In this document: positions 23,238 through 45,293 of the stretch, one piece after another
How the letters are laid out: each line of letters begins with the position of its first letter
Numbering within the stretch: position 1 is the first letter of the stretch
DNA from: an uncultured Litoreibacter sp.
Lineage (GTDB): Bacteria > Pseudomonadota > Alphaproteobacteria > Rhodobacterales > Rhodobacteraceae
Direction: 5' to 3'
Length of the DNA: 64,000 bases
Assembly: GCA_947494645.1 (NCBI GenBank)
Contig: CANLVO010000001.1
Coordinates: 1,612,001-1,676,000, forward strand
Translations under genes and position numbers: made by a program
The notes under the pieces: generated by a model
The model's input: the letters and a program-made list of their open reading frames with translations, nothing else
What the model was told of the DNA's origin: nothing
Databases searched by the model: none

Positions 23238-23252
23238 ATGGCGGAGGAGGTG
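23238..23252 (+). repeat. Left attachment site of the island (attL-type repeat)
   Basis: ATGGCGGAGGAGGTG is identical to 45279-45293, the reverse complement of the tRNA-Ser 3' acceptor end including CCA. No other tRNA sequence accompanies it here, so it is a solitary copy of the crossover core left by integration. Confidence 0.85.
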
Positions 23253-23382
23253 TCTGTATAACTCTTGTGCTATGCTGTTCACCGGCATACGCCTGCATTC
23301 TTTTTTTAACATAAAAACTGGGTACTTAATTTCATCCACATCCATTGCTGTTCATCCGAGTTCTTGTTAAGTCGAAGAAAAG

Positions 23383-23404
23383 TGTGGGAACAAATGTGGG
23401 AACA
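23383..23404 (+). promoter_or_regulatory. Integrase arm-type repeat pair, left end
   Basis: Two direct copies of a TGTGGGAAC-type word separated by four bases (at 23383-23391 and 23395-23403), immediately before the integrase start. A pair differing at only two of 22 bases lies at 45205-45226, near the other end and in the same orientation. Position near both ends suggests arm-type binding sites for the integrase. Confidence 0.6.
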
Positions 23405-23406
23405 TC

Positions 23407-24591
23407 GTGAGCTTGAGTGTGCAAAAAGTGAAGAGTGCGGGCCCCGGACGCCACGGGGACGGGCGTGGGCTTTTCCTCTATGTCAAGCAATCCGGGGCGC
23501 GATCATGGGTGCTACGGTATCAGGTGCAAGGGCGGCGGCGTGATCTGGGTCTTGGCTCCTTTCCAGATGTGACACTTGCAATGGCCCGCGACCGTGCTGG
23601 CGAAGCCCGCAGGATGATCGCAGAAGGCGAGGACCCTATTTCGAAAAAACATCAGACCAGGCCGAAAACCTTTGAGGAAGCAGCACGGGAACTGATCGAA
23701 AGCAAGAGACCAGGTTGGAAGAGCGCCAAACACGCCGCGCAATGGACATCGACGCTTAAAACCTATGCTTTTCCCAAGCTGGGCCGCATACAGGTTGCAA
23801 AGATACAAACCTCTGACGTGATTGCAGCCCTATCGCCAATTTGGTCAGAAAAACCCGAAACAGCGAACCGTGTGCGTCAACGTATAGAATCTGTTATGGA
23901 CTTCGCGAGCGCAATGGGCATCAGGACGGGAGACAATCCCGCGAGATGGCGTGGGCACCTGGAAAACCTATTGCCAAGACCAAACAAGGTCCGTGCAGTA
24001 AGGCACCACCCTGCCCTGCCACACGCAGATATTGACCACTTCATGGAAGCACTGTCACAGCGCAAAGGCGTGGCAACACGCGCTCTGGCCTTTACCATAC
24101 TGACCGCCGCGCGTTCTGGCGAAACGCGGCTTGCGACGTGGGCAGAAATTGACCTTGATACCCGATCTTGGACTGTCCCGGCTCACCGAATGAAAGCGGC
24201 AAAAGAACACCGCGTCCCCCTCACTCTTGCCGCCATTGCTCTACTCGGCAAGCAACGTGGCGGTGACGCACTGCTATTTGAAAGCGAAACAAAACTCGAA
24301 AAACCGATCTCAAATATGTCCATGACCTCTGTCCTTCGACGAATGGGGCAAAACGACGTCACGGTGCATGGCTTTCGGTCGACGTTTCGTGATTGGGCTG
24401 GTGAAACCACCGGTTTCCCGCGCGAGGTGATTGAAGCGGCACTAGCGCATGGAATTAAGGACAAAGCTGAAGCGGCTTATGCGCGGTCTGACCTGTACGA
24501 CAAACGACGAAAACTGATGGAGGCATGGTCAGATAGAGTATTTGCGCGACTGACGAACAAAAATGAGGTTCCCTTCACTCGACCAAACTAA
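23407..24591 (+). CDS. int: P4-type tyrosine integrase of the island
   Basis: 394-aa integrase with an N-terminal DUF4102 arm-binding domain (about residues 10-85, with GRGLFLYVKQSGARSWVLRY and DLGLGSFPDVTLAMARDRA), a core-binding domain (about 90-190) and the catalytic domain. Catalytic residues are visible: the first Arg in ILTAARSGETRLATW, the HxxR box HGFRSTFRDW and the C-terminal Tyr near AEAAYARSDLYDKRRKLMEAW. It starts with GTG 154 bases inside the left boundary. It should catalyse integration at tRNA-Ser. No frameshift is visible, so it may be active. Confidence 0.9.
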   Translation: MSLSVQKVKSAGPGRHGDGRGLFLYVKQSGARSWVLRYQVQGRRRDLGLGSFPDVTLAMARDRAGEARRMIAEGEDPISKKHQTRPKTFEEAARELIESKRPGWKSAKHAAQWTSTLKTYAFPKLGRIQVAKIQTSDVIAALSPIWSEKPETANRVRQRIESVMDFASAMGIRTGDNPARWRGHLENLLPRPNKVRAVRHHPALPHADIDHFMEALSQRKGVATRALAFTILTAARSGETRLATWAEIDLDTRSWTVPAHRMKAAKEHRVPLTLAAIALLGKQRGGDALLFESETKLEKPISNMSMTSVLRRMGQNDVTVHGFRSTFRDWAGETTGFPREVIEAALAHGIKDKAEAAYARSDLYDKRRKLMEAWSDRVFARLTNKNEVPFTRPN

Positions 24592-24856
24592 ATCCGTCTT
24601 TGGTCCGTAGTTTGTTCGAAACCAACTTCGCTTGCATGCATGGCCCGCTTTTCGATTGAGGCCACGCTGTGATCATGAAGCCCCGTCGCTGCAGCAAACA
24701 CTCTAGGGCCAGAATTGGCAGCTGGATCGGCGGCAGAAGGCCGAAAAAGCTACAGGTGGGTCCATTTTCTCTGTCGGAATTGTCGCGCGTACAAGTTGCA
24801 AAGTGCCCACTTCAACACCATATGATGTCAAATTTGATGAATAGGGCACAGCATTT

Positions 24857-26077
24857 ATGGCATCCTACAGTGGCTTTCTCCGCAAATCCCCGAGCGCGCG
24901 CTTGCAGGCATGGTTCGAACAACGGAGGGTGGAGTTCCCAGAAGACTTCAACTGGCAAAGCGCCGGACGCGGAACGGACTTTGTCACGGATACCAATGCG
25001 CTGATTGATGCTCTCCCCGCGCTCAAACAGGATGCTCTGAAAGCCGAGTTGGACCATCTCGCCAGCCTGTCCGACGATAAGGGATTGTTAGCCGCTGAAC
25101 AGATTTGTTCACCGCTAGACATTGATCTGGAAGGCCTGGAAGGCGTGCAGGATGTGATCCTTATGCTTGCCACCCACCATCCCCAAACGCTGGAACGGGT
25201 TGGAGTTCTTGCATCTCTAAGCCAACGATATGGCGGCAAGAGCTGGTCCACCTTCCAATTCGAAGATGATGGCAATTCCTGGGTCTTGGATAACGAAGAG
25301 ACACGAGCAGCTTTTGTCCAAGATGCCGTTGCGATTTTGGAGCTACCGGACCATCGCAAGAGAGAGGCGGATTGGTACAAGTCTTGTCGTGTGCATCCAA
25401 TCACCGGCGAAGAAACGGAGATGATCCACGCAACCATTTATGTCGAGGATCGCGCATCTATCGAGCTGACTTTTGGTTCATCGGCGGGATTGGAGCGGCA
25501 GGTCTTTCAGCGCGTTGTCGAAGTAGGCATCGCCTGTGACCCCAAAGAACGAATTGTCGAAATCTGCGCGAGTGGCGGGAAGAAGGTGCGTGACCAGTAC
25601 GCGACCGCGTTCTCCAAACATTTTGCGCCGGAGGCACCGCCACCAATTGAGGCTCCAAGACGGGAAGTGCTGCTGGAAACCCTACGCATACAGCCTAGCT
25701 TCCTGATTGAGCCATCCGACGGGATCGACCGTGTAGAGGTATCGTCACTTGATCTGTTCGCATCAGGTGGTGGTATTGCCCGGTTCGAACGGCGCGGAGA
25801 TGACGAAACAGTTCATCAGTTTCTCGCGCGACAGTTTGGTAACTCATCGCCTCTTATGCGTCGGGGCTGGACTATCGTTGCTACAACCCTGCGCATTTAC
25901 ATGACTGCGCAAGAAGGGAAACGAGCGCGCACCCTGACTGTCACCCTGCGGGCTCCGAATACAACGACGATCCCAAACAAGACCGATATGGACCGGCAAT
26001 TCGTCTTGCGCTTGCTGGAACGCTGGAAACTAGTCGCTCCGTCGCCGGAAGATGTCGATGTGATCGAGGCAGCATAG
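24857..26077 (+). CDS. Unknown 406-aa protein, first gene of an abutting pair
   Basis: I do not recognise the family. The protein is soluble, acidic and without signal peptide or membrane segment. The N-terminus (MASYSGFLRKSPSARLQAWF) is basic; a central region holds several Trp (WSTFQFEDDGNSWVLD, READWYKSC); the C-terminal third carries regular beta-rich stretches (FLIEPSDGIDRVEVSSLDLF, LRIYMTAQEGKRARTLTVTLR). The stop is directly followed by the ATG of the next gene without any gap, so the two are almost certainly coexpressed. The position right after the island integrase is where cargo such as defence modules is often found, but no known defence domain is visible. Confidence 0.75.
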   Translation: MASYSGFLRKSPSARLQAWFEQRRVEFPEDFNWQSAGRGTDFVTDTNALIDALPALKQDALKAELDHLASLSDDKGLLAAEQICSPLDIDLEGLEGVQDVILMLATHHPQTLERVGVLASLSQRYGGKSWSTFQFEDDGNSWVLDNEETRAAFVQDAVAILELPDHRKREADWYKSCRVHPITGEETEMIHATIYVEDRASIELTFGSSAGLERQVFQRVVEVGIACDPKERIVEICASGGKKVRDQYATAFSKHFAPEAPPPIEAPRREVLLETLRIQPSFLIEPSDGIDRVEVSSLDLFASGGGIARFERRGDDETVHQFLARQFGNSSPLMRRGWTIVATTLRIYMTAQEGKRARTLTVTLRAPNTTTIPNKTDMDRQFVLRLLERWKLVAPSPEDVDVIEAA

Positions 26078-26884
26078 ATGGACGCGGCCCGCTTTCTTGG
26101 CGGCATCATATCCCAAAGTGCCCCTGCCTCTGCCGCGCAGTTAAAGTCTGTTGGGGCGTATCATGCTTTGATTGACGGTGGATACATCGAAGAGATAGGC
26201 GTGGCGCAATCCGTTCTTTGCGACGATTGCGACCGGCCTCATGACGCGGCGGTCGTGTTTGAAGCGGACCAATACGGTATTCATTGCCCGGACCTTGGAT
26301 TCATTCCGAAAAAGCGTTCCGAGTTGGTGATAGTTAGACCAAATTTGGAACGACTTGTCCAAAACCTCGCTGACCGCATGGGATGCAGGCGTATCAAATC
26401 GACACCAATTCACTGTCAGACTTGGCGGGTTGGCATTGTGTCTTTTCCCTCTGCAGACGTAGCGGTCTATTTCCAACCAACCTTGCACGATGCCCTTGAT
26501 CTTCGATGCCTTGAGACTGCTTTGTCCAACGAAGCGCGGGTGCAATATGGCGTCATCCTTACTGCATCTGGGGAATTAGAACGTCCACCGTTCAAGACCG
26601 TGCGCATGGAAGACTGCCTCAAATTTGATAAGGTAGCGATGGCATTTGAATTCGACGCTGACCTCGTCGTGATTGCGGGCGCGCCGATAAAGAAAAAGGG
26701 CGGGCGGCCCAGCGCTTATAGCGTCAAGCTTTCAAAAATTATTTCAGCCCGTGCCGATTCTGGCAAAGCCTTGTCTGGTTTGAATGAGGAAGCCCGTGCT
26801 ATTCGTGCTATCTATCTTGCCCAATGCTCAACCGATACTGTGCCATCCATATCTACGATAAAGCGCATACTGACAAAGACTTAG
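26078..26884 (+). CDS. Unknown 268-aa protein with zinc-site-like cysteines, second gene of the pair
   Basis: Unrecognised protein. It has a probable zinc site near residues 48-70 (Cys48-x2-Cys51, then His69-Cys70) after a short helical N-terminus that resembles a winged-helix-like segment (ASAAQLKSVGAYHALIDGGYI). The C-terminal 65 residues are basic and open with KKKGGRPSAYSVKLSKI, a pattern often found at the edge of DNA-binding helices, ending PSISTIKRIL. It begins on the base after the stop of the preceding gene. A DNA-binding partner of that gene is the most cautious reading. Confidence 0.72.
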   Translation: MDAARFLGGIISQSAPASAAQLKSVGAYHALIDGGYIEEIGVAQSVLCDDCDRPHDAAVVFEADQYGIHCPDLGFIPKKRSELVIVRPNLERLVQNLADRMGCRRIKSTPIHCQTWRVGIVSFPSADVAVYFQPTLHDALDLRCLETALSNEARVQYGVILTASGELERPPFKTVRMEDCLKFDKVAMAFEFDADLVVIAGAPIKKKGGRPSAYSVKLSKIISARADSGKALSGLNEEARAIRAIYLAQCSTDTVPSISTIKRILTKT

Positions 26885-26978: not shown

Positions 26979-27182
26979 ATGACAAACGCAAACGAAGCAA
27001 GACAGCACAGGCCCATTGCGGTCTCACCAGATGAAGCCGCGCGGCTGGCGGGGATTGGGCGTACCACTCTTTATGCCGCACTGGCAAAAGGCGACTTACC
27101 CAGCATCAAGATTGGCACGCGGCGGCTTATCAGGGTCGACGCCATTCGTGATTGGCTGGCGCGGAATGAGGGTGAGACCTGA
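26979..27182 (+). CDS. Excisionase-like helix-turn-helix protein
   Basis: 67-aa protein of the MerR-type HTH_17 excisionase class: VSPDEAARLAGIGRTTLYAALAKGDL followed by IKIGTRRLIRVDAIRDWLARN. Such proteins bind DNA as recombination directionality factors or small regulators. GGAG lies about nine bases before the ATG. Its stop overlaps the start of the next gene (TGATG). Three tyrosine recombinases of this island could be its partner. Confidence 0.85.
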   Translation: MTNANEARQHRPIAVSPDEAARLAGIGRTTLYAALAKGDLPSIKIGTRRLIRVDAIRDWLARNEGET

Positions 27183-27634
27183 TGCCGAAATCAGCCAGCT
27201 TAATCGGCATCAAATCGGTGTATTGCTACACGATCCAAGAAGCGGCGGAAGCGACCGGCGTTGCGGACCGGACTATTCGTGCGTGGATCAAAGCTGGTCT
27301 TCCGTCAATGACAAAGGAACGCCCTACCTTGCTACGCGGCGACGCATTAATCGCCTTCATCAAAGCTCAGCGAAAAGCACGTAAAAGAAAGATCGGGCAA
27401 GACGAATTCTACTGCCTAAAATGTCGGGCCGCGCGCAAACCGGCAGGAAGAATGGTCGAATGCGAAACGAATGGTGTACGTGTCAGACTTATTGCGATTT
27501 GCGACACCTGCGAGACGATAATGCACAAACCTGTCGCCATTGCAGAGATTCAGAAACTTGCAGAGGTCTTTGATTTGGCGATTAGGGACCGCTCCGAACC
27601 CATGAAGCCCCTCGCAGCAAAACAGCCACTCTGA
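27182..27634 (+). CDS. HTH plus zinc-ribbon protein next to recombinase
   Basis: 150-aa protein. Residues about 15-65 form an HTH_17-like domain (YTIQEAAEATGVADRTIRAWIKAGL), followed by a basic linker (AQRKARKRKIG) and a four-cysteine zinc ribbon (CLKC about 20 residues after the linker, CDTC about 35 residues later). It overlaps the upstream HTH gene by one base and precedes a tyrosine recombinase by 120 bp. The pairing of HTH with zinc ribbon suggests a DNA-binding accessory of that recombinase; not proven. Confidence 0.75.
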   Translation: MPKSASLIGIKSVYCYTIQEAAEATGVADRTIRAWIKAGLPSMTKERPTLLRGDALIAFIKAQRKARKRKIGQDEFYCLKCRAARKPAGRMVECETNGVRVRLIAICDTCETIMHKPVAIAEIQKLAEVFDLAIRDRSEPMKPLAAKQPL

Positions 27635-27754
27635 ATCGACATTAAGGTGGTGGACATACGCCCCCCTGAACTTCCGCTTCCACGCCCACGCGAGTGGCAG
27701 GCTTTTTTGCACGCCGCACTACACTCGGCACCAATAACCAGACGAGGTACTTAC

Positions 27755-28774
27755 ATGACCAGTAAACCTAACGAAAACAACGAACGCACGAAACGTGACT
27801 TCCTGACCTATCGCAAACACTCCAAACAGGTCTCAGAGAAGACACTGGACCGAGAAATAGCCGCTCTCGAACGCTTCGATATCTGGAACGCGCGCAAAGA
27901 CTTTGTAAAGTTTCACATTGATTGGGCAGTAGGTTTCCGTGCGTATCTGGAGAAAGCCAAAGCCCAAACTGGCAAACCGTTGGCCAAATCCACGACACGA
28001 GCAATTATGGCAACGCTGCGCGAGTTTTTCCTTTGGTTATCTCAGCAAGACGGCTTCCGCCGTCGTATCAAGGCCCGTGATGCCAACTACTTCAGACTCT
28101 CTCTACGAGACGAAGCCGAAGCGCGCGCAGCACCTGAACGCCCAGCGCCCAGCACCCACCAAGCCAGACGCGCTTTGGAGATGATGCCCAGCACAACGCC
28201 TCGTGAAATGCGTGACAAGGCGATTTTTGCGCTTCTGTGTCTCACGGGCATTCGTGTCGCCGCGCTCACCTCCCTGAAGATCAAGCACGTAGACTTAAGC
28301 GAAAAGTCTGTCAGCCAAAACCCACGCGAGGTAGCAACCAAGTTTGGTAAGAAAATCGACACCTTCTTTGCCAAGGGTTTCGATGAAGCCGAGACCACAT
28401 TGACCAACTGGCTGGCCTGTCTTGACGAAGTGGTTCTCTACAGCCCGGATGATCCGTTGTTTCCCGCTACAGCACTTATAGCAGACGCAAGTGCGGGATT
28501 CACTGCGGTTGGCTTTACCCGCACCCATTGGAAAACTACAGAGCCCGTCCGCAAGATCGTCAACAGCGCCTTTGACAATGCTGGACTGCCTGCATTTGGC
28601 CCACACGCATTTAGGCACATGCTAGCCCGTCACGCTGCAAAGACGTGTACTTCGGTCGCGGAATTGGTGGCAACGTCGCAGAACCTCGGCCATACAGACG
28701 TTCTCACTACGTTGCGAAGCTACGGACAAATCAATCGCGAAGATCAACGACGCTTGATTACTGGACGGGATTAA
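27755..28774 (+). CDS. Tyrosine recombinase, second of the island
   Basis: 339-aa site-specific recombinase with an N-terminal SAM-like core-binding domain (about residues 20-125) and a catalytic domain (about 145-335). The active-site residues appear as Arg in LCLTGIRVAALTSLKI, HAFRHMLARH and GHTDVLTTLRSYGQI with its Tyr. I chose the ATG at 27755 because GAGG lies eight bases upstream; the frame is open from 27647. It lacks the arm-binding DUF4102 domain of the first integrase, so it probably acts on a different site. It follows the two HTH genes. Confidence 0.87.
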   Translation: MTSKPNENNERTKRDFLTYRKHSKQVSEKTLDREIAALERFDIWNARKDFVKFHIDWAVGFRAYLEKAKAQTGKPLAKSTTRAIMATLREFFLWLSQQDGFRRRIKARDANYFRLSLRDEAEARAAPERPAPSTHQARRALEMMPSTTPREMRDKAIFALLCLTGIRVAALTSLKIKHVDLSEKSVSQNPREVATKFGKKIDTFFAKGFDEAETTLTNWLACLDEVVLYSPDDPLFPATALIADASAGFTAVGFTRTHWKTTEPVRKIVNSAFDNAGLPAFGPHAFRHMLARHAAKTCTSVAELVATSQNLGHTDVLTTLRSYGQINREDQRRLITGRD

Positions 28775-28792
28775 GGGTCAATTTTCTTCAAG

Positions 28793-28845
28793 CGCAGCGA
28801 AAGTCTGTTTTGAGCCCATTGCGGAAGTGCCAAATTTTCGCTGCG
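28793..28845. repeat. Long-armed inverted repeat between two recombinase genes
   Basis: CGCAGCGAAA (28793-28802) and its exact reverse complement TTTCGCTGCG (28836-28845) are 33 bases apart. It lies in a 277-bp gap after the second recombinase that holds no gene. It may be an extragenic repeat, a recombinase site or a transcript end. The local wording resembles the palindromic region at 41391-41410 (both hold forms of CGAAAG or CAAAGCGG around GAGCCCA-like words). Confidence 0.35.
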
Positions 28846-29051
28846 TGCGCTCGCCGCGAAAGAATTTCTGCGCATGCAAGGTCTTCAGCGCAGTTACGCG
28901 GCGGTGAATCCGGCCATTCATTCGGCCTGCTATTAGGTTTGGAGCAAAAACTCACGGGTGGCAGGTCGGATGCAATCAGGTTTGCGAGTAGCATTCCTAC
29001 GTCAGCGCGGTGCTGATGCTTGGGTTTGGAGGGCGGCAAGGAGGGCAAATT

Positions 29052-29684
29052 ATGCCTAGAGTCCAACTTCCTGCCGTAACCCCGAAACGTAAAGCCTGGA
29101 ACAAGGGGCGGATTATCGGCCAGAAACGACCGTTGCTGCCAAAACAGGTTTGGGCAATCCGAGCGCGACTCGAGTTGGCCAACAACCTTCGTGATCTAGC
29201 GCTATTTAACGTTGCCATCGACAGCAAACTACGTGGTTGTGATCTGGTCAGGCTCTCAGTGGTCGATCTGGTCAAAGAGGATCGCGTCCGAGAACGGGTT
29301 TCGGTGATTCAGTGCAAAACCAAGCGGCCTGTTCAGTTTGAACTGACAGAAAACACAAGGGAAACTGTCCTGGCTTGGGTCAAATCGCCCGAGATGTTGG
29401 CTTGCTCGTTTGTGTTTCCCAGCCGCTTCCACGACCGCCCGCACATTTCAACCCGTCAGTATGGCCGGTTGGTGCACGATTGGGTGTCGGCGATTGGTTT
29501 GGAACCGAGTGGATACGGAACGCATTCGCTGCGCCGGACAAAAGCTGCTGAGATTTACCGGAAAACAGGCAACCTGCGTGCGGTTCAACTGTTGCTCGGC
29601 CATACGAAGGTCGATAGCACAGTGCGCTACCTGGGAGTTGAACTTGAAGATGCACTTAGTATCGCCGAGAATATTGACCTCTAG
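29052..29684 (+). CDS. Short tyrosine recombinase, third of the island
   Basis: 210-aa tyrosine recombinase comprising little more than the catalytic domain, about the size of FimB/FimE invertases. Catalytic positions are visible: Arg in IDSKLRGCDLVRLSV, HSLRRTKAAEIYRK and LLLGHTKVDSTVRYLGVE with Tyr. The ATG at 29052 has GGAGGG about eight bases upstream; the frame extends to 29010. Isolated short recombinases of this kind are common in proteobacterial islands and plasmids, and their target sites are usually unknown. Confidence 0.85.
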   Translation: MPRVQLPAVTPKRKAWNKGRIIGQKRPLLPKQVWAIRARLELANNLRDLALFNVAIDSKLRGCDLVRLSVVDLVKEDRVRERVSVIQCKTKRPVQFELTENTRETVLAWVKSPEMLACSFVFPSRFHDRPHISTRQYGRLVHDWVSAIGLEPSGYGTHSLRRTKAAEIYRKTGNLRAVQLLLGHTKVDSTVRYLGVELEDALSIAENIDL

Positions 29685-29880
29685 GCAATGGGCGTGCGGC
29701 TGGTGCCGCCTGCGTTTGCGGGCAAACCTGCCGCACGCAGCGCAATTGATCCAGAGTTAAAAGCGCCGCCAAACGTCCTCTTGATGTCCGATCATATCGG
29801 TATTTCTGGACAAACTCTGGTTCGACTGGATTGGCAGTCAACCCACAATGGCCAATCACTTGGACGGCTTACCCTTTGAA

Positions 29881-30561
29881 TTACATAACCTTACGGACGG
29901 CGGCGCAAAGCTCGGGGTGCATTATCCAGTTCTCAGCCTTCTCGTCATGTTCGGAGACATCTCGATACCCAATGAGCGTGCTTCCATCCGGGCCCGTTGA
30001 AGGCCCCGTGGATGCCGTTCCCGAAGACAGATAGCCCGCAATCATACGACCCGCGCTGGCGAGCGCTCTGTTGGCCGAGGTCATGGACTTGTAGCTGCCA
30101 GCATCTGCAACCTTAACCTGTGCCAACCCGTCCGCTTCCTTCAGCGACAACGCCATCAACATGGCACGCTGCGAACCCGTCAGGTTTACAGAATGGAGCG
30201 CTTCCACGTATTCGTCGGATGTTGGTACCTGCGTCCCTTTGTGAGGGTCTGTTCTGCGGTCTTCGGCCCTACGGACTTCGCGCTGATCAATGGCGGAATG
30301 CAATGCGATGATCGCAGCTTCTTCGGTCTCACCCGTCGCCTCGGCAATCAAGCCGCGCGCCTTCGTGGGTGGCTTGGGAAAGGCGCGAGCGCCGTATGCG
30401 CCGGCGAGACGACCGGACTTGATCTGATATCTGCCATACTCGCCCACGCGGATCGACATAGCGGCTTCTTTCCTGGTCTCCTTGGCCTTCGATTTCTTCG
30501 ACATACCCTTGAAGACGTCACGTCCCGCATCTGATCTGTTTGGAGCTGTGTAATCTGGCAT
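29881..30561 (-). CDS. Unknown 226-aa protein
   Basis: Unrecognised soluble protein with a good ribosome binding site (AGGAG). The N-terminus is strongly basic (KGMSKKSKAKETRKEAAMSIR), followed by a GEYGRYQIKSGRLAGAYGARAFP segment that looks like a small beta hairpin, and a C-terminal alpha-helical part (YVEALHSVNLTGSQRAMLMAL, TSANRALASAGRMIAGYL). The C-terminal portion could be a winged-helix DNA-binding unit (SQRAMLMALSLKEADGLAQ), though weakly. It lies beyond a cold-shock gene in the same direction. Confidence 0.65.
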   Translation of the reverse strand: MPDYTAPNRSDAGRDVFKGMSKKSKAKETRKEAAMSIRVGEYGRYQIKSGRLAGAYGARAFPKPPTKARGLIAEATGETEEAAIIALHSAIDQREVRRAEDRRTDPHKGTQVPTSDEYVEALHSVNLTGSQRAMLMALSLKEADGLAQVKVADAGSYKSMTSANRALASAGRMIAGYLSSGTASTGPSTGPDGSTLIGYRDVSEHDEKAENWIMHPELCAAVRKVM

Positions 30562-30681
30562 CGGGCTGGTCTCCTGGGATGAACAATTCGTAGTGCCGGT
30601 TCGGCGGATACCAATCAGGGCAAAGGAACTGCTGCGTTAGGCAGCGGAAGAAGATTCAAAAACAAATGGCCGTCTGTCGAA

Positions 30682-30702: not shown

Positions 30703-30713
30703 ATTTGCAAAGA

Positions 30714-37466: not shown

Positions 37467-37988
37467 ATGGACGAACAAAGAGCGAAAACCATCGCGGTTT
37501 TTGACCGGCCTTTCAATCTTCCTGGCTTCGACGAAACGCTTCCCGCCGGAGAGTATGATATCGAGACTGAATTCGCCTCACCACCTGATCACAAGGACCC
37601 TCAGGTCTGGAAGGCCTCCGTCGTGGTCCATTTGCATCCACGCCTGTCCCATCCGGGATTAACACGGAGCCTGACTGTGTCGCTTCTCGATCTTGACCGC
37701 GCCCGTGCGAGAGACAAACTGTCCGGCAAGGACCTGTCACAGGTCTTTCTCGAAGAAATGCTGGCCGATCCGATGGTGCAACTCGTCATGCAGGCCGACG
37801 GGGTGTCCGAGGCTCAATTGCGCCATCTCTACTCGGGATCGGGGACGACACAGACTGACAGGGGTGACGCGGATACTGAGGCCGAAAACGCAACAGCGCG
37901 GGGGGCTTCGCGGGACGCTTCGGACATTCATGACGCCGAGAATGAAGGGATGCCGTGCCGATCGCGCACGTCATCCGTTTCCGTATGA
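37467..37988 (+). CDS. Unknown 173-aa protein with acidic disordered tail
   Basis: From the ATG at 37467 with GAAAGGA about ten bases upstream. The N-terminal 60 residues (TIAVFDRPFNLPGFDETLPAGEYDIETE) resemble the beta-rich segment of the 104-aa protein at 33565. A helical centre (LSQVFLEEMLADPMVQLVMQADGVSEAQLRHL) and a low-complexity C-terminal tail (DRGDADTEAENATARGASR) follow. No family recognised. Its stop overlaps the ATG of the next gene. Confidence 0.65.
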   Translation: MDEQRAKTIAVFDRPFNLPGFDETLPAGEYDIETEFASPPDHKDPQVWKASVVVHLHPRLSHPGLTRSLTVSLLDLDRARARDKLSGKDLSQVFLEEMLADPMVQLVMQADGVSEAQLRHLYSGSGTTQTDRGDADTEAENATARGASRDASDIHDAENEGMPCRSRTSSVSV

Positions 37989-38251
37989 TGCCCACAACGC
38001 AATTTCAGGGACCAAATGAACGCGAGGATCTGATGCAAGCAAAAGTCGACGATATCCTGATGGATCAACCCAGCCGCGCGCTCGGCGATGTGCCGAAGCT
38101 GCGGTTCTGCTTGGCTTGTAGTGCTTCGTTTTGGAGCGAAGGGTTCGGCCAGCGCATTTGTGTAAGATGCAAAAGAACGACAGCATGGCGCGCGGCAATG
38201 CTCGAAGGGGTCAGCACAGGTCGGTCTCGCTCCGGCGGTAGGTCGACTTAG
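37985..38251 (+). CDS. Small protein with CxxC zinc-finger motif
   Basis: 88-aa protein beginning MMPTTQFQGPNEREDLMQAK. Two CxxC pairs (CLAC and CVRC, about 18 residues apart) define a likely zinc ribbon, followed by a basic Arg-rich C-terminus (GRSRSGGRST). It overlaps the upstream gene by ATGA. A shorter form starting at 38033 is possible. It may bind nucleic acid. Confidence 0.6.
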   Translation: MMPTTQFQGPNEREDLMQAKVDDILMDQPSRALGDVPKLRFCLACSASFWSEGFGQRICVRCKRTTAWRAAMLEGVSTGRSRSGGRST

Positions 38252-38260
38252 ATCTGCTGC

Positions 38261-39127
38261 ATGCCAACGATTACGATCACACATACGACCATCTATCGCT
38301 ATCGCGTCGCCGTGGTCCTTGGACCGCACAGGCTGATGTTGCGTCCTCGCGAAACGCGGGACCTCACATTGACGGCTTTCGATTTTGATATCACGCCGAC
38401 GGCTCGCATGGACTGGTCCCACGATGTCGCTGGAAACGCCATCGCCATCGCCAATTTCGATGCCTCAACGGAAACGCTATCGATCCGGTCGCATACGACC
38501 GCCGTCCTCACTGGACCTGACTGGCCTGTCTTCCCGATCGCGGCCTCTGCGACGTCATACCCATTCCTTTACTCCGCCGAAGACTGGAAAGATCTCGGGG
38601 CGCTTTCTGCACCACAATACCAAGACGACGCAGGGCGCCTGTCAAACTGGGTCGAGCAATTCGTGATGCGCAGGCCAACGGATACGTTGTCGCTCTTGAA
38701 GGACGTCAGCAATGGCATCACAGCGCAGATCGCGTATCAGAGCCGCGAGCGCGAAGGCACGCAAGGACCACTTGAGACCCTCGACCGTGGCTACGGGACG
38801 TGTCGCGATTTTGCGGTCCTATTTGCCGAGGCTATGCGAACACTGGGTTTTGGGGCGCGCCTGGTGTCCGGATACGTCTACGCCCCCAATGATATCCGAC
38901 GAGGATCTGCTGGCTCGGGCTCTACGCATGCATGGGTCGAAGTCTTTGTTCCCGGGGCAGGCTGGATCCCGTTCGACCCAACGAACATGTCGGTGGGGTC
39001 GGCCAATCTGATTCCGGTGGCCGTTGCGCGGAACATATCACAGGTCGCTCCGGTTGCCGGAAGCTACCATGGAGAAGGTACCGATCTTCTCGCTATGGAG
39101 GTAGTTGTCCGTGTTGAAGACCAATGA
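38261..39127 (+). CDS. Transglutaminase-like cysteine protease-fold protein
   Basis: 288-aa protein with an N-terminal bacterial transglutaminase-like beta domain (about residues 5-85, TITHTTIYRYRVAVVLGPHRL) and a catalytic transglutaminase-like core. The triad is visible as Cys181 (GYGTCRDFA), His223 (STHAWVEV) and Asp239 (FDPTN). Family members are proteases or crosslinking enzymes, often found in gene sets with alpha-E/DUF403 and circularly permuted ATP-grasp proteins; those are absent here. It lies at the end of the small-gene run. Substrate unknown. Confidence 0.86.
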   Translation: MPTITITHTTIYRYRVAVVLGPHRLMLRPRETRDLTLTAFDFDITPTARMDWSHDVAGNAIAIANFDASTETLSIRSHTTAVLTGPDWPVFPIAASATSYPFLYSAEDWKDLGALSAPQYQDDAGRLSNWVEQFVMRRPTDTLSLLKDVSNGITAQIAYQSREREGTQGPLETLDRGYGTCRDFAVLFAEAMRTLGFGARLVSGYVYAPNDIRRGSAGSGSTHAWVEVFVPGAGWIPFDPTNMSVGSANLIPVAVARNISQVAPVAGSYHGEGTDLLAMEVVVRVEDQ

Positions 39128-39626
39128 CTTCACCGATGTAGGCGGAATCCACAAATCTCCGCGCAGTCCAGTTGGAGGTTCACAATGTGTTTCGCTGTAT
39201 GTCGTGCAACTCCTCGGACTAATCTGGGACAGTACGGGCACAGAGCGCATCCGCGGATATCTACTGGCGACACACGCAGGTGTAGTCGTCGGTCGAAACT
39301 CTGTTTGAGCGTGCCGACTAGCCTTACTCAGCTTTCGTCCTGGCTACCGTATCACGCGGCGTTCGGGCGGTTTTTCTGGGTGTCTCAATTGGCAAGCCAA
39401 AGGACCGCTTCGGCGAAATTGGCTGCAATGCAGCGAAACGCATGTCGCAGATGCGAATGGTTTCTGCGTCAGCGAAAACTGCACCTGCAAAAGTCTGCTT
39501 TGTCCGCCTAGCTGCCTTTAGAAGGCCTCAAGTGGGTAAGAAAGTTCGACCGAGAGCGTAAGATGTCCCCTTTAGTCCCTCACTGCCTTAGGCAAATCAT
39601 GCGATTACGACATCTTCGGAACGCCT
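39128..39626. other. 499-bp gene-free stretch on the island
   Basis: No convincing gene, RNA or repeat. Short plus-strand frames (such as 39185-39511) show no ribosome binding site and no motif. Words such as GCAGCGAAA (near 39430) and TCAGCGAAAAC (39470s) resemble the arms of the inverted repeat at 28793-28845, so it may hold decayed copies of an extragenic repeat. It also separates two unrelated gene sets. Confidence 0.5.
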
Positions 39627-41051
39627 TTAACTCAGGTATTCTGCGTATCTCTGCCAGGCGTGTAGTGAATTCGTATGGATAGGCTGTCGCACTTCGCTGG
39701 CGCTCAATGTCATGACGGCTCTGGAATTTTTGTCTGGCGACAAACATGCGTCGTCCCAGGGCAGCCCCACGTCTGCAATCAGTCTTCGCGTCTCATGCTC
39801 CGGGTTCTGAACCAGATCCTCGTATCGTACGGTAACGATCGCGTCGGAGCATCGATCCATCCAGAAATCCAACATCTCGTCAAATGCCGACTGGTAAACC
39901 GCTACGTCGCTCAGATCGTAGCTAAAGAGTTGTTTTCCCGGTCGGAATATATGTCGGTAATTCGACAGCGCAGTCGGTTCTGGTCGCCGTTGCAAGACGA
40001 CAAAACGTGCCTTCGGCATCGCGGCGGCCGCAAGCCCGAGATACATCCAGGTTTGCAAAGACTTATCCGTCAGATGTGGGGCGTCCTGTGCGACCAGCTT
40101 CCGCATTGTTTCGGCGTAGTCTAACCCCGTTTTTCCGAAAGCCTCAGGCGTCAGTTCCAACTTTCGTCGCGCATCCACCATTGGGTCACCGATAAAGCGC
40201 TTCGCAACTTTGAAAAACGCACCCGTTTCACCGGCCGCGTCAACTTGGCCGTGCGAGGAGATGATCTGCTCGACCAAGGTCGTCCCAGAACGCGGCATGC
40301 CGGTCACGAAGATCGGCGCAAAATCAGTGCTGGTATCGTTCCAGAAATCTGATGGATCGAACTTTTCAAAAACCCGCTGATAGCGCCGCACTGTCGCGTG
40401 GCGTTGTGCGATGTCGAAGGGATACGCCGTCCGCATGGCAACATTTGCTGTCTCAAGATGCCGAAAGCTCTTCCTGGGATCGTCCATCTGATCCCAGGCC
40501 TTTGCCAGCGCAAAATCCAGATGGAACGCGGCGGAACTACCCTTTTTTGCCGTTCTGCGGGCTTTCTGAAGGCGTGCCAAAAGCGGCGTATCAGATTTGA
40601 AATATGTTATTGCAGCAAGATGAAAGAGAAGCTCGCCATTGTCAGGATCAATGCTGATCGCACGTTCCAAATCGGAGTGCGCCTTCTCCATATCGCCAAG
40701 GCTCTGAAGCAATAAGGCTCGTCGCGCCAGAAAACGTGGATTATTAGGCTCGAGTGCAATTGAGCGCGTCAGCGTTTCAACGGCGTCCGGCAGAAGGCGG
40801 GCACTTTCCTCCAATTCAGCGCGATAGGCCAATATCCGAACGGACACCACCCCCGAATCAATACTCCGAATATCTTCAAGCGCGTCATGGAGGTGACCCA
40901 ACGTTTGCAGTATCCGGGCACGAAAGATCAGCGCATTCGGATCGGGGCCATTGCGCGTGATTTCAAGGTTGATGGCGTCAAGCGATCCCAACATATCCCC
41001 AGAGGCGGCGCGGGCGCGCGCTTGAACAACATAGTCGGTTACCATTCCCAT
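39627..41051 (-). CDS. TPR-sulfotransferase fusion protein
   Basis: 474-aa protein with tetratricopeptide-type helices in the N-terminal 180 residues (for example NALIFRARILQTLGHLHDALE, NNPRFLARRALLLQSLGDMEKAHSDLERAI) and a sulfotransferase domain (about 235-465) whose PAPS-binding loop is TGMPRSGTTLVEQIISSHG. Such TPR-sulfotransferases sulfate surface or secreted glycans or proteins. There is no signal peptide, so it is cytoplasmic. It stands alone in this part of the island. The acceptor is unknown. Confidence 0.87.
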   Translation of the reverse strand: MGMVTDYVVQARARAASGDMLGSLDAINLEITRNGPDPNALIFRARILQTLGHLHDALEDIRSIDSGVVSVRILAYRAELEESARLLPDAVETLTRSIALEPNNPRFLARRALLLQSLGDMEKAHSDLERAISIDPDNGELLFHLAAITYFKSDTPLLARLQKARRTAKKGSSAAFHLDFALAKAWDQMDDPRKSFRHLETANVAMRTAYPFDIAQRHATVRRYQRVFEKFDPSDFWNDTSTDFAPIFVTGMPRSGTTLVEQIISSHGQVDAAGETGAFFKVAKRFIGDPMVDARRKLELTPEAFGKTGLDYAETMRKLVAQDAPHLTDKSLQTWMYLGLAAAAMPKARFVVLQRRPEPTALSNYRHIFRPGKQLFSYDLSDVAVYQSAFDEMLDFWMDRCSDAIVTVRYEDLVQNPEHETRRLIADVGLPWDDACLSPDKNSRAVMTLSASEVRQPIHTNSLHAWQRYAEYLS

Positions 41052-41692
41052 GGAGGGGTTCCTACGCTTGGCCCGTTACCGGGGCTTATCTGGAAGCAGA
41101 GATTGAGTTGCGCAAAATTGAGCGGTTTGAACCAATGGGCTGTCTGCAAATTTCGTGGTGGCTCGGCTCGACGTCATCTGCTTCTCCCGTAAACTATAAC
41201 GTTTAGTTTTGGTGTTGGTACCGTCTGTTTTCGCAAAAGGATCGTGCGTAAACGCACCGGCGAGAATTCGCCGGATATGACAGCAGAACGCCAAAAAAAT
41301 AGACGAAAATGGAAGTAGGTCGTTTGTCCCGCAGAGCCGCCATCGAATTGCCCTTTGCGGCCTGAAGGCCCTACCGAAAGCGGCGGACGACCGCTTTGTG
41401 CGCAAAGCGGACATTGGGCTCGATCAATCGAATGGCAGCTTCGTCCCGCTTTCAGGACACTGGAACCTTGATCAATTCCAATCTCTTAATGATATCAGTT
41501 CGTCTCGGACATAGCTCAGGTTAGCTCTTGCGATATTTTGTGCGACAGAAACTGATCGGGCACTTTTTGTTGACCTTCGCGCCTCGCCCGGTGCGTTGTG
41601 AGACACCATGTTCACTTGTCAGACTGTTGGCGCGCTTGAAGCTTGTCCAAAGCGTTTGCATCGGACCATAGTCGGAAGCCAACGGTACTTCG
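41052..41692. other. 641-bp gene-free stretch with a palindromic extragenic sequence
   Basis: No protein-coding evidence. A frame on the minus strand (41076-41414) begins MSALRTKRSSAAFGRAF but is a reading through an extragenic repeat. The promoter of the sulfotransferase gene (minus) and of the histidine kinase gene (plus) must lie here. A short palindrome occurs at 41391-41410. Confidence 0.5.
41391..41410. repeat. Extragenic palindrome CCGCTTTG-TGCG-CAAAGCGG
   Basis: CCGCTTTG and CAAAGCGG are perfect arms around TGCG, in a gene-free region. The flanking word GCGGACATTGGG is of the type that recurs between genes in Rhodobacteraceae genomes. Copies elsewhere in this genome cannot be seen here. 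Confidence 0.4.
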
Positions 41693-43093
41693 ATGCGGCA
41701 CAAACAGGTGATGAAGGAAAACCGGCGATTGTTTAGACATCCAGTTACAAGGCGCTTTGTGCTTGTCGGAAGCATCGTCATGGCCTTGGCCGCCTTGGTT
41801 CTCGGGAATTGGGTGACCCACCGGATTGAACGCGGGGTGGTCAACAATTCTGCAACGTCTGCGGCTGTATTTATGGAGAGTTTCATATCGCCCGTCAGCC
41901 ATGAATTCTCAGACCCGGCTGGCCTTACCGACCCATCCCGCTCCGCCTTGCGAGAAATCTTTCTGCAATCGGCTTTGGGGGACCGCATCGTTTCATACAA
42001 AATCTGGGGAGACGGCGGCGAAATCATCGAAGCGTCAAATGCAGAACTAGTTGGGCAAATATTTGAGCTTTCTGAGGATCAAAATATCGCGTGGACAGGA
42101 AAGATCGCTGCATCATTTGAAGACCTCTCTGATGCAGAGGATGCCGCAGAGTCGGCTTTGGGAATTCCACTTTTGGAAGTTTACAGCCCTGTCTTCGACG
42201 CATGGACTGGCGAAGTTGTTGCAGTCGCAGAGTTCTATGAAAATGGGACTTCCCTTGCGGCTGAGATCGGAAGCGCCCGGCGGAATACATGGCTGGTCGT
42301 CGCAGTGGTCTTTTTGTTAAGCGCTGCTTGTCTTGTCGGCTTGGTGGAGGCTGCCGGTCGGCAAATCGAACGTCAACGCATAGAATTGAAGGAACGCCTG
42401 AGAGATGCGGAGTGCCTTTCCAGGCAGAATGCAACCCTGACACAGCGGGTCCGGTTAGCTGCAGCCCGATCAACGGCTCAGTCCGACCGGGTCATGCAAA
42501 GGATCGGACAAGAGCTTCACGACGGCGTGGCCCAACATCTTTCACTTGCTGGGCTGCGGTTGACAGACGGCGACACGAAGAGTGCAAAAGACGAGGTCAC
42601 TGTAAGAACCTCTCTAGATGCCGCGATGCGAGAACTTCGCGCGATTTCGCGGGGGCTGTCATTGCCTGATATCGAAAACCTGAACCTGGCAAATACAATC
42701 TCTCGTGCAATCCAGGATCACAAACAGGCATTCGCACAGCAAGTTCACGAGAATTTTGAAGACAGCCTTAAAATTCCTGCGCCTTCATCCATTAAATTGT
42801 GCTGCTATCGGTTTGTCCAGGAAGCGCTCTTCAATACCTACAAGCACGCTGAGGCTTCGAAAGTCACAGTTGATGCGATGGTTGATAGCACGGGCATACG
42901 CGTCAGCGTTAGGGACAATGGAAGAGGTTTTGATGCTGAGGCTCGTGATCTCGTTCGCGAAGATGGCGGGCAAGGACTTATGGGCCTAAGAGACCGGGTC
43001 GAGGCGCTTGGCGGCAGAATGGATATCGAATCCAATCAAGACTTCGGAACCAGGATTTCCCTTACACTTCCGACAACGGAGACAGGCTTATGA
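41693..43093 (+). CDS. NarX-type sensor histidine kinase
   Basis: 466-aa membrane kinase. One membrane segment near residues 20-36 (RFVLVGSIVMALAALVLGNW), a periplasmic or cytoplasm-external sensory part (about 40-195), a second membrane segment near 200-222 (TWLVVAVVFLLSAACLVGLVEA), a coiled-coil linker, then a HisKA_3 dimerisation domain with phospho-accepting His276 in QELHDGVAQHLSLAGL and an HATPase domain (N box FVQEALFNTYKHAEA, G1 box DNGRGFD). It overlaps its response regulator by ATGA. The signal is unknown. A start at 41711 is also possible. Confidence 0.88.
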   Translation: MRHKQVMKENRRLFRHPVTRRFVLVGSIVMALAALVLGNWVTHRIERGVVNNSATSAAVFMESFISPVSHEFSDPAGLTDPSRSALREIFLQSALGDRIVSYKIWGDGGEIIEASNAELVGQIFELSEDQNIAWTGKIAASFEDLSDAEDAAESALGIPLLEVYSPVFDAWTGEVVAVAEFYENGTSLAAEIGSARRNTWLVVAVVFLLSAACLVGLVEAAGRQIERQRIELKERLRDAECLSRQNATLTQRVRLAAARSTAQSDRVMQRIGQELHDGVAQHLSLAGLRLTDGDTKSAKDEVTVRTSLDAAMRELRAISRGLSLPDIENLNLANTISRAIQDHKQAFAQQVHENFEDSLKIPAPSSIKLCCYRFVQEALFNTYKHAEASKVTVDAMVDSTGIRVSVRDNGRGFDAEARDLVREDGGQGLMGLRDRVEALGGRMDIESNQDFGTRISLTLPTTETGL

Positions 43094-43734
43094 CCATTCG
43101 CATTCTCGTAGCGGACGACCATCCAATCTTTAGGGATGGATTGGTAAAGAGCCTTGAGGAGACGGGAGAATTTCGAGTCGTGGCCGTTGCATCGTCAGCC
43201 GGAGAAGCTGCAAAGCTAGCTGAAAACAAGCGTCCTGACTTAGCGTTGCTTGATCTCTCAATGCCCGGCGGCGGCCTTAAGGCGCTTGCTGACATTATTG
43301 CCGCTGAAACCGCCAAACAAGTTGCCATGCTTACAGTCTCAGAGGAGGACGAGGATGTCGGAAGAGCATTGCAAGAAGGTGCGTCCGCCTACATCCTGAA
43401 GGGAGTGTCTGCATCCGAGCTCAGAAAAATCCTCAAAGATTTAACAAACGGGGAATCTTATGTCTCTCCGGGATTGGCAGCGAGGGTTCTGACCGTGCTT
43501 TCTCAACCGAGGCCAAATGAAGCCCCAACCGTATTCGATGACCTTACGGCCAGAGAGCTGGATATCCTCAAGCTCGTGGCAAAAGGACTAAGCAACAAAG
43601 AGGTCGCGATTGACTTGGATATTCAGGAGAAAACGGTCAAACACCATATGACTGCGATCATGAGCAAACTGCAGGCGAGAAACAGGGTAGAGGCAGCGCT
43701 CATGGCTCATGATCGCTGGAGCAGTGAGGCCTAG
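43090..43734 (+). CDS. NarL/LuxR-family response regulator
   Basis: 214-aa response regulator partner of the preceding kinase. The receiver domain has Asp9-Asp10 (LVADDHPIFRDG) and the phospho-acceptor Asp55 (LALLDLSMPG), the conserved Thr in AMLTVSEED and Lys in YILKGVSA. The LuxR helix-turn-helix (about 148-212) reads LTARELDILKLVAKGLSNKEVAIDLDIQEKTVKHH. Target genes are unknown; the oxygenase and EF-hand genes downstream are candidates from position. Confidence 0.9.
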   Translation: MTIRILVADDHPIFRDGLVKSLEETGEFRVVAVASSAGEAAKLAENKRPDLALLDLSMPGGGLKALADIIAAETAKQVAMLTVSEEDEDVGRALQEGASAYILKGVSASELRKILKDLTNGESYVSPGLAARVLTVLSQPRPNEAPTVFDDLTARELDILKLVAKGLSNKEVAIDLDIQEKTVKHHMTAIMSKLQARNRVEAALMAHDRWSSEA

Positions 43735-43756
43735 GTCGACAGAAAAGTTCGTCGAT

Positions 43757-44386
43757 CTACTTTGATGATTTTGTTTTTGAAAACGTCGCGTTGAACGCGA
43801 CTGTAACCCGCTCGCCATTGGCCTCATTCGGATAAACCCAATGCATCAAATAAGATGGAAATAGGATTAGGTCACCTGGCTTGGGTCTTATCTTTCTCTT
43901 TATTCTGAACGGTGGCGCATCGAGCAATCTCCAGTTGGGAAGGTCTGATCGAGGATCGAGAAACTCGATCATGCCAGAGTCCCCTTTCTCGATTTCAGGT
44001 TGTGACACGTAATACACTCCGGACCAATGCGCCCCAGGGTGGGTATGCGGGGCATTGAATCCTCCGGTCGGATTTACGTTCATCCAGCCGAAGAGTTTTA
44101 GCTTCAAGGTGCTCATGTCAACTTTCGCCCCAACGCGCGAAGTCGCGTTCAATACGGCTTCAGAAGCCAGTGCGTCCAACACTTTTATAGGTGCAGATTT
44201 GCCCTTGAATAGATTTCCTTTCGAGTGCCAGCCGCCCTTATTGGATTTGGAAACCCCATCTTCTTCCGACATTATTGCTTGGCCTTCAGCCAGCAAGTTC
44301 TCATTCAGCGGCCCGTGTTCCGGAAAGTGAAACTGAAAGAAGGGGGTAGCGAAGAGCTTCTGATATTTGTCTGACTGCAAGAGCAT
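43757..44386 (-). CDS. Putative 2-oxoglutarate/Fe(II) oxygenase (TIGR02466 type)
   Basis: 209-aa protein of the putative 2OG-Fe(II) oxygenase family. Iron ligands are suggested by the His-rich segment NAPHTHPGAHWSGVYYV (His114, His116) and His182 in SYLMHWVYPN; Arg193 in GERVTVAFNA would bind 2-oxoglutarate. N-terminal LFATPFFQFHFP and the GWHSKGNLFKG segment are family features. Such proteins hydroxylate unknown substrates and are common in marine bacteria and cyanophages. It is convergent with the response regulator. Confidence 0.83.
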   Translation of the reverse strand: MLLQSDKYQKLFATPFFQFHFPEHGPLNENLLAEGQAIMSEEDGVSKSNKGGWHSKGNLFKGKSAPIKVLDALASEAVLNATSRVGAKVDMSTLKLKLFGWMNVNPTGGFNAPHTHPGAHWSGVYYVSQPEIEKGDSGMIEFLDPRSDLPNWRLLDAPPFRIKRKIRPKPGDLILFPSYLMHWVYPNEANGERVTVAFNATFSKTKSSK

Positions 44387-44469
44387 TGTTGATCCCGATA
44401 ATTGATATCTGCCCTCAGGGTAAACCTGAGGGCAAAAACTGACGCTAAGCCATGATCATCAATGAGCGA

Positions 44470-44928
44470 CTAGTCTTCATCGTCTTCGCTATCGTCTGAC
44501 TCGTCGCCACCTTCGTCGTCATCCGAGCCGTCGCTGTCTTCTTCATCATCCGAACCACTGCTGTCTTCTTCATCATCGGATTCGTTGTCGTCTTCCTCAT
44601 CATTTGACTCGTTGTCATCTTCTTCGTCGTTAGACGCGCTACCATCCTCTTCATCATCGGATTCTTCGTCATCTTCCTCGTCATCTTCTTCGTCGTCGGA
44701 AAACGATGCCTTCACCTCCACACGAGTAAGATCGCCGTTTCCGTTCCGGTCTGCACGACGCAGTATCTTTTCTGCAGTTTCTGCACCAAAGACTTCGACT
44801 AATTCCTCAAGAGTCAGCAGGCCATTCCGGTCTGTATCGATATCAGAAAATGCACGGCCTTCCGCCGAGGCTGGTGAGGTAGCCGCCACACAAAGTGAGG
44901 TTGTCAAAAGTAGGTGTGATAGTTTCAT
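44470..44928 (-). CDS. Exported EF-hand protein with long Asp/Glu/Ser tail
   Basis: 152-aa protein with AGGAGAAGAGAA before the ATG and a signal peptide (cleavage near SPASAEG). Two calcium-binding EF-hand loops are complete: residues 31-42 (Asp31, Asp33, Asn35, Glu42) and 60-71 (Asp60, Asn62, Asn64, Glu71). The last 75 residues are a low-complexity run of Asp, Glu and Ser in units like ESDDEED, from tandem GA(T/A)-rich DNA repeats. It may bind many calcium ions in the periplasm or at the cell surface. Function unknown. Confidence 0.82.
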   Translation of the reverse strand: MKLSHLLLTTSLCVAATSPASAEGRAFSDIDTDRNGLLTLEELVEVFGAETAEKILRRADRNGNGDLTRVEVKASFSDDEEDDEEDDEESDDEEDGSASNDEEDDNESNDEEDDNESDDEEDSSGSDDEEDSDGSDDDEGGDESDDSEDDED

Positions 44929-45204
44929 TTCTCTTCTCCTAGCATGCAGATGTTCCCAAAAACGCTTGGGAGCTCGTGTTGAAAACCTGCAGAATCAAAT
45001 GCGCTTCGTCATCGGAAGCTGGTCTGTCTAGGATGCCGATTAGGTCCAGCGTTTCATCGGACCAAGGTCTGGGACTTCATGAGTTCTGTCTGGGACGTGG
45101 ATACCGGTATCGAGAAAGCCACATGTAAGGCGTCATTTACGGCCCCGCGTTGGCTCCGTTGTCGTGCATCGCCACCAGGATCATTCGGCGACACTCGAAC
45201 AAAA
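44929..45204. other. Gene-free right end of the island
   Basis: No gene or RNA feature found between the EF-hand gene and the arm-type repeats. The base composition is lower in G+C than the flanking core genes. A short frame at 45079-45273 runs across the arm repeats and is not credible. Confidence 0.5.
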
Positions 45205-45226
45205 TGTGGGAATAAACGTGGGAACA
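45205..45226 (+). promoter_or_regulatory. Integrase arm-type repeat pair, right end
   Basis: Two direct copies of a GTGGGAA word, spaced exactly as the left pair at 23383-23404 and matching it at 20 of 22 positions. The site lies 53 bases inside the right attachment core. Confidence 0.6.
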
Positions 45227-45278
45227 ACTCGAATCCCTTGACAATTTTCGTTTATTTTCAATTGAATAGTTAGCCGTC

Positions 45279-45293
45279 ATGGCGGAGGAGGTG
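45279..45293 (+). repeat. Right attachment site of the island (attR-type repeat)
   Basis: ATGGCGGAGGAGGTG, identical to 23238-23252. Here it is the 3' end of an intact tRNA-Ser gene on the minus strand, so the integration event restored the tRNA with the incoming copy. Confidence 0.85.

Follow-up and report, generated by a model that had tools for sequence, protein, structure and literature searches.

Several described systems resemble the genomic island analysed here and its relatives. Islander-type tRNA islands, in the excerpts of PMC4383910 available, encode a tyrosine integrase, have an intact tRNA gene at one end and a displaced 3′ fragment at the other, and can form tandem arrays. P4-like satellites carry a P4-type integrase with interchangeable defence cargo adjoining the integrase gene (PMC9122126 and PMC10803314, in part). 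PICMI satellites are small integrative elements with an integrase, an HTH_17/AlpA-type gene and a defence hotspot; the PICMI model represents AlpA by two Pfam models, of which HTH_17 is one (excerpts of PMC10803314). Tycheposons, in the section of PMC10872708 that describes them, have a tRNA gene at one end, a tyrosine recombinase and metabolic cargo. GInts combine several recombinases with a small helper gene, variable cargo and flanking direct repeats (passages of PMC5385486).

The island was found in a 64,000-nucleotide stretch of DNA from an uncultured Litoreibacter sp. (the window), where it occupies 22,041 bp, counted from repeat to repeat, at the 3′ end of a tRNA-Ser(UGA) gene (Table 1). 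It belongs, as a variant, to a family of elements at serine tRNAs in Alphaproteobacteria that can be recognised as such and often carry defence genes. In the family backbone the integrase gene, int, occupies the tRNA-distal end, and the genes u406, u268, an HTH gene and rec375 follow towards the tRNA end. Within the part of the literature covered by a search of open-licence PMC papers, no earlier description of the family was recognised.

The family differs from each of the systems above, as far as the excerpts cited describe them. Unlike Islander-type islands (PMC4383910), it has a fixed arm geometry, with int far from the tRNA and a second recombinase on the tRNA side. The window island has the integrase and AlpA-type HTH_17 gene of a PICMI and no primase among the ORFs scanned; it also differs from PICMIs (PMC10803314) in its location at a serine tRNA and not at fis, and in its two recombinases. 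The Tycheposon example in PMC10872708 has a tRNA-Met and xerD. In GInts (PMC5385486) three consecutive integrases, ginABC, are accompanied by ginD, whereas the three recombinase genes of the island do not form one operon (by gene order only, since u406, u268 and the HTH gene separate int from rec375), the target is a tRNA and the arm-type integrase is at the far end. No P4 structural, replication or capsid-hijacking gene was matched by Pfam or PHROG among the ORFs scanned, ten of which were given to PHROGs.

Table 1 Site, ends, arm geometry, backbone and cargo position of the island as observed in the window.
Feature	Coordinates	Strand	Basis or remark
Left 15-bp direct repeat, left end of island	23238..23252	+	Exact repeat; core-to-left-arm distance the same in 8/8 related loci with int
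Left arm pair GTGGGAA-N5-GTGGGAA (predicted arm site)	23383..23404	+	145 nt from core, 2 nt before int start codon
int, P4-type tyrosine integrase, 394 aa	23407..24591	+	Pfam PF13356 (Arm-DNA-bind_3), PF22022 (Phage_int_M), PF00589 (Phage_integrase)
Usual cargo slot of the family (int-u406)	24592..24856		265 bp here; ~5.8 to 13.5 kb in six relatives
u406	24857..26077	+	No Pfam/NCBIfam family; PHROG 37634; weak CENP-N/Chl4/RdgC-like fold match
u268, partner of u406	26078..26884	+	Cys and His residues invariant in close relatives
HTH_17/MerR-like small DNA-binding protein, 150 aa, excisionase-like candidate	27182..27634	+	Pfam PF12728; PHROG excisionase among matches
rec375, XerC-like tyrosine recombinase, last backbone gene	27647..28774	+	Pfam PF00589
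16.4-kb cargo, rec375 to right arm pair, unusual position	28775..45202		Regulatory and metabolic genes
rec224, tyrosine recombinase, catalytic domain only	29010..29684	+	Pfam; matches at many places in the genus
Cold-shock protein, 68 aa	30714..30920	-	Pfam CSD
Crp/Fnr-type regulator	31754..32485	+	Pfam
DUF1611 protein, DgcN-like	34620..35966	+	Below DgcN cut-off
Ala_racemase_N protein, ornithine-racemase-like	35963..37084	+	Below ornithine-racemase cut-off
Transglutaminase-like protein	38261..39127	+	Pfam
TPR-sulfotransferase	39627..41051	-	Pfam
Sensor histidine kinase	41693..43093	+	Pfam
LuxR-type response regulator	43090..43734	+	Pfam
2OG-Fe(II) oxygenase	43757..44386	-	Pfam
EF-hand protein, repeated acidic stretch	44470..44928	-	Pfam
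Right arm pair GTGGGAA-N5-GTGGGAA (predicted arm site)	45205..45226	+	74 nt from core
Right 15-bp direct repeat, at tRNA 3′ end	45279..45293	+	Exact repeat
tRNA-Ser(UGA), intact target gene	45280..45369	-	ARAGORN (anticodon TGA); Rfam tRNA 45283-45369

Both copies of the 15-bp repeat read ATGGCGGAGGAGGTG and are identical to the 3′ end of tRNA-Ser(UGA), and a tyrosine integrase gene lies between them, as in tRNA-integrated islands generally. When the left 45 kb was shuffled 200 times with base composition alone preserved, the longest part of the 15-mer recovered was 13 bp, once. The left and right arm pairs, TGTGGGAACAAATGTGGGAACA and TGTGGGAATAAACGTGGGAACA, are identical at 20 of 22 bases; the pattern GTGGGAA-N5-GTGGGAA occurs twice in the window and not once in 200 windows shuffled in the same way (both strands). 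The G+C content is 0.535 in the backbone and 0.553 in the cargo, lower than in the flanks (0.590 and 0.592).

The search for int covered 394 genomes (393 genera) of the host's taxonomic family. Among the matches listed, int was found at 60% identity or more in 11 genomes, the island's own included (in G414 over part of the query), with the closest relatives at 62–81%, and u406 at 50% or more in 13 of the 394 (a partial match in G307 and G293). The 82 plasmid records that matched at E 1e-60 all have less than 60% identity to int. In six relatives (G428, G021, G407, G409, G414 and G232) int and the four-gene module flank about 5.8–13.5 kb of other DNA. Within the stretches fetched, ARAGORN found a serine tRNA close after the module in G428, G021, G409 and G414, about 10 kb beyond it in G407, and none in G232 (five of six).

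A scan for u406 loci, with one genome per species and the best 80 of 88 loci kept, gave 18 close loci (L127–L144), of which at least five (L129, L130, L137, L138 and L140), judging by length, duplicate contigs with a G handle. The module order u406-u268-HTH150-rec375, which defines the family and is present in the window, was detected with all four genes in 16 of the 18 (rec375 of L127 is broken by a contig end); L139 is broken by a contig end and L144 lacks an HTH match. Direct abutment of the module on the right end is usual and not defining, and in the window 16.4 kb lies between the two. A serine tRNA follows the module in 13 of the 18 (GCU in seven, UGA in three, CGA in two, GGA in one), and no tRNA was found at the right core of L130 and L137. 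The hosts of family loci are Rhodobacteraceae, Kordiimonas, Pseudovibrio and a Rhizobiaceae MAG.

The geometry of the ends is constant, and arm pairs about 75 and 145 nt from the core are a mark of the family (74 and 145 nt in the window). Right ends were examined in 16 of the 18 loci, L127 and L139 being excluded for their contig ends; the right arm pair was present in 14, always 74–76 nt before the core TGGCGGA, and was not found by the pattern used in L141 and L143. The left arm pair lies 144–145 nt after the core in all eight loci with int, the nearest core being taken where two are present (L131 and L138). These eight relatives are 10.4–13.6 kb long, and seven have exact end repeats of 14–18 bp (8 bp in L137). 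The variable part of the core matches whichever serine tRNA is targeted (UGA, CGA, GCU or GGA), so that a single integrase lineage uses four serine tRNAs and brings, for each tRNA, the matching core of about 14 bp. One island thus becomes a recognisable family, the ends of which can be placed with single-base precision in other genomes. The first-pass annotation had named tRNA-Ser(UGA) as the target and the two 15-bp repeats as the element ends; the identity of the repeat with the tRNA 3′ end and the conservation of repeat and end geometry in relatives bear this out. It had also taken the repeat pairs for arm-type sites, and they are very probably the arm sites of the island integrase, as the arm-to-core spacings are fixed across relatives whose target serine tRNAs differ.

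In int, rec375 and rec224 an HxxR motif is kept together with a later H motif, both typical of tyrosine recombinases. Relatives of rec375 with 70–82% identity adjoin serine tRNAs; its true start is perhaps the ATG at 27752.

The u406-u268 pair is shared with loci of another kind. PHROG 37634, which u406 matches, is of unknown function, and a literature search found no mention of it. The other 62 of the best 80 of 88 loci hold distant u406 homologues (21–26% identity), and IMG/VR gave one match at 64% and 79 at 22–27% (best 80 of 143 stretches). A u268-cluster gene is present in 47 of the 62 distant loci and a cluster c7 gene in 26, and the u268 profiles of the close and the distant group align with 97.8% probability over 180 columns. 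In the one locus annotated, L173, the neighbours are a CcrB-like serine recombinase (c7), an HTH repressor and Sak4-like, helicase, primase-helicase and RuvC-like genes, and because of these the distant loci are called prophage-like. A conserved gene pair of unknown function, common to the islands and to prophage-like operons, can thus now be named.

The predicted model of u406 (mean pLDDT 79.9) gave CENP-N/Chl4-type, RdgC and Iml3-Chl4 chains as nine of its first ten Foldseek matches in PDB, several being copies of the same protein. Their probabilities are 0.75–1.00, yet the TM-scores are low (0.18–0.37). Chain N among these matches is presumably CENP-N. In a viral structure library a phage RdgC was at rank 3, with a probability of 0.51. 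According to the excerpts of PMC11077077 available, RexA, RdgC, Iml3 and Chl4 share one DNA-binding fold and rex genes also lie near a prophage repressor. The weak match of the u406 model makes an RdgC/CENP-N-like fold a lead. By sequence u406 was rejected as an RdgC (hhalign probability 0.5; no match to u406 from a 12-protein RdgC profile), and PF04381 had no match in the island's own genome. RexB is a small membrane protein; u268, with 268 residues and conserved Cys and His, is unlike it. The u268 model (pLDDT 88.3) found nothing better than E 0.09 in the PDB fold search, and searches of Pfam, NCBIfam and PDB found neither a known family nor a solved fold for u268. Against PDB sequences the u406 and u268 profiles gave zero and three weak matches, respectively, none convincing.

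In the relatives the cargo sits between int and u406. Restriction-modification or Cas9/Cas1 genes were found in seven of 11 bounded elements (L130–L133, L137, L138, L140, L142, G414, G428 and the window island; some scanned as their G-handle copies): type I restriction-modification in L132, L133, L137 and L140, type III in L138 and L142, and Cas9 with Cas1 in L130. No defence gene was seen in L131, the window island, or the parts of G414 and G428 scanned by Pfam only (one of two large ORFs and four of five picked ORFs, respectively); the best PADLOC match of the window island, from ten ORFs, had an E of 0.03. In G410, where the module is divergent (u406 and u268 both 24%) and the int-u406 slot is about 0.1 kb, a type IIG enzyme lies between u268 and the right end. 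The family offers a simple means of searching for defence cargo in Alphaproteobacteria, including a Cas9/Cas1 locus.

The window island carries its cargo on the other side of the module. The first-pass annotation had called the content largely unannotated, which is about half right: 13 of 27 distinct ORFs have no match above a curated Pfam cut-off and 14 do. Some of the 13 may be non-genes. Apart from the window island, cargo after rec375 is clear only in G005, a member of the same genus whose element is itself partial. There a fragment of int precedes HTH150 and a rec375 that occupies two frames, and no u406 or u268 was found. Next come 6.5 kb that include genes for a sensor kinase and a TctA transporter, then the right arms and the core, after which a second element begins with its left end and int. 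In G410 the cargo follows u268, with no HTH or rec375 match. Parts of the window cargo (28792-29118, 31355-34282 and 36685-38043) are present at 90–93% identity on an 88-kb contig of G020, beside coupling-protein and relaxase genes, whereas the island's chromosomal flanks are only 67–76% identical to G020. The order of rec224 and the DUF1611-racemase pair recurs on a 78-kb contig of G018, near a coupling-protein gene. The remaining cargo genes have relatives scattered across the genus.

The island is not conserved across the genus: a close integrase (74–75% identity) was found in two of 20 other genomes of the genus, G005 and G010, which are also the two with a close rec375, and G006 has a broken int piece (68%). 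The tRNA site was compared in six genomes (G016, G018, G006, G013, G020 and G008). On the far side of the tRNA one gene is common to all six and its neighbour to five, while on the island side the gene nearest the tRNA differs in every one. Among the genomes compared, the left neighbours of the island, of which folD is the nearest, were found only in G019 (57% complete). There the left flank reaches to 268 nt from a tRNA-Ser without the island, and the contig ends 57 nt into the tRNA. The 268 nt are unlike the window, and blastn leaves the window's own 48 nt before the repeat unaligned, so the junction in G019 is not placed to the base.

Taken together, the island is very probably one integrative element of the serine-tRNA family, with its own P4-type integrase at the tRNA-Ser(UGA) 3′ end, that has acquired an extra 16.4 kb. 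The integrase would insert the 22,041-bp element by binding both arm pairs and exchanging strands within the core common to the tRNA 3′ end and the element, as the conserved geometry suggests, and would also mediate excision at the core. With 2 nt between the left arm pair and the int start codon, Int probably also represses its own gene; tight control of an integrase gene is the subject of PMC2951348. The HTH protein would probably serve as directionality factor. For rec375, a part in excision or in the resolution of dimers is possible. With the usual slot nearly empty, the 16.4 kb of accessory genes would have been acquired between rec375 and the right arm pair. The ORFs scanned include no transfer genes, so movement of the element is probably passive, with a helper phage or by some other route.

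That the repeats arose by chance in ordinary chromosomal DNA has a negligible probability; the short repeat length is all that favours it, and the shuffle controls and the fixed end geometry in relatives contradict it. A composite of two tandem elements, in which a short one spans int to rec375 and another, the source of the 16.4 kb, supplies the right end, would fit the tandem arrays within the family (G005 and L231, where the core is followed by a second left end) and the presence of the recombinase gene rec224 at the left of the cargo. However, the interior has no third exact copy of the core GGCGGAGGAGG and no GTGGGAA between 23396 and 45206, the cargo ORFs scanned include no second arm-domain integrase, and G005 has cargo at this position too, followed by a single right end. 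The composite is thus improbable and was rejected. Less probable still is a remnant of an integrative conjugative or mobilizable element: the cargo parts 90–93% identical to DNA beside relaxase and coupling-protein genes point that way, but no relaxase or T4SS gene was found among the island ORFs scanned (relatives were scanned in part).

More serious, if doubtful, is the proposal that the family is a phage satellite, excised and packaged on helper infection, with u406-u268 serving this cycle. The lengths of the eight relatives measured, the resemblance of int and HTH_17 to the int-AlpA pair of PICMIs, the defence cargo hotspot and the u406-u268 homologues in prophage-like loci are consistent with it. 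Against it, the island ORFs scanned include no primase, terminase or capsid gene, no helper is known, and u406 and one distant homologue had no match in 50,697 phage records. The statement in the first-pass annotation that the island is not a phage holds for structural genes, none of which was found among the ORFs scanned, and needs qualifying for u406 and u268, with their homologues in prophage-like operons. We tentatively raise the possibility that these are undescribed small, satellite-like serine-tRNA elements with a DNA-enclosing u406 of the RdgC/RexA/CENP-N type, an excisionase-like HTH protein and a second recombinase, and that the window copy has swapped defence for metabolic cargo. 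If so, satellite-like elements would shuttle restriction-modification and CRISPR-Cas9 cargo between orders. The preferred reading remains a single integrative element with its own integrase.

The first-pass annotation had missed the backbone, the second recombinase, the atypical location of the 16.4-kb block and the links of u406-u268 to phages. A stretch that follows rec375 (TTTGAGCCCATW) was considered as a repeat family and rejected; it occurs at three exact places in the island's own genome, and its longer form once in the window.

Locus L113 (genome G232; apparently the same as L130, from Litorivita pollutaquae) is a family member of 11.2 kb whose cargo includes Cas9 and Cas1 genes (7239-11470). 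Family members are also found in tandem. In L231 (contig C22 of G005, a genome of the same genus as the window), two members lie one behind the other at 216-10442, the rec375 gene of the first being split over two frames. In the IMG/VR contig L237 (4599-9869), a closely related member has its right end there, and at its core a left-end-like TCCGT comes next; beyond this lie genes that look, on inspection by eye, primase-like and terminase-like, an arrangement resembling a phage-type element in tandem. In the relative G407, the right core of the family member and a tRNA-Ser(GCU) gene are some 10 kb apart (C10, 183489-193400); the DNA between them contains large genes and may be another element inserted at this site.

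The window's own cargo includes an EF-hand protein gene and the recombinase gene rec224. Matches to rec224 were found at numerous sites across the genus, and several genomes have one close to the DUF1611-racemase pair. In another genome of the genus (locus L228, G020:C4, 10553-15154) pieces of the window's cargo are present at 90-93% identity, with coupling-protein and relaxase genes adjoining; two stretches are absent relative to the window, cutting rec224 and the racemase gene.

Features of the window and of its own genome (G000)
Feature	Location	Remark
rec224	window 29010-29684	tyrosine recombinase without N-terminal domain
EF-hand protein gene	window 44470-44928	24-27-nt repeats encode an acidic stretch
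P4-type integrase	G000:C1:1451306-1452439	47%
P4-type integrase	G000:C1:1928103-1929236	36%

Given the two further P4-type integrases in the table, the window's genome probably holds further islands. HTH-rec pairs 30-39% like that of the window were identified in five further genomes of the genus (L050, L320-L324 and L326); in G006 the pair comes after a P4-type integrase and adjoins a homologue of folD, the gene flanking the window's island. Many of the distant u406 homologues (L145-L206) have close by both a gene like u268 and a cluster of CcrB-like serine recombinases, and a tRNA gene lies within the fetched stretch at 23 of the 62 loci (serine, 14; methionine, 9).
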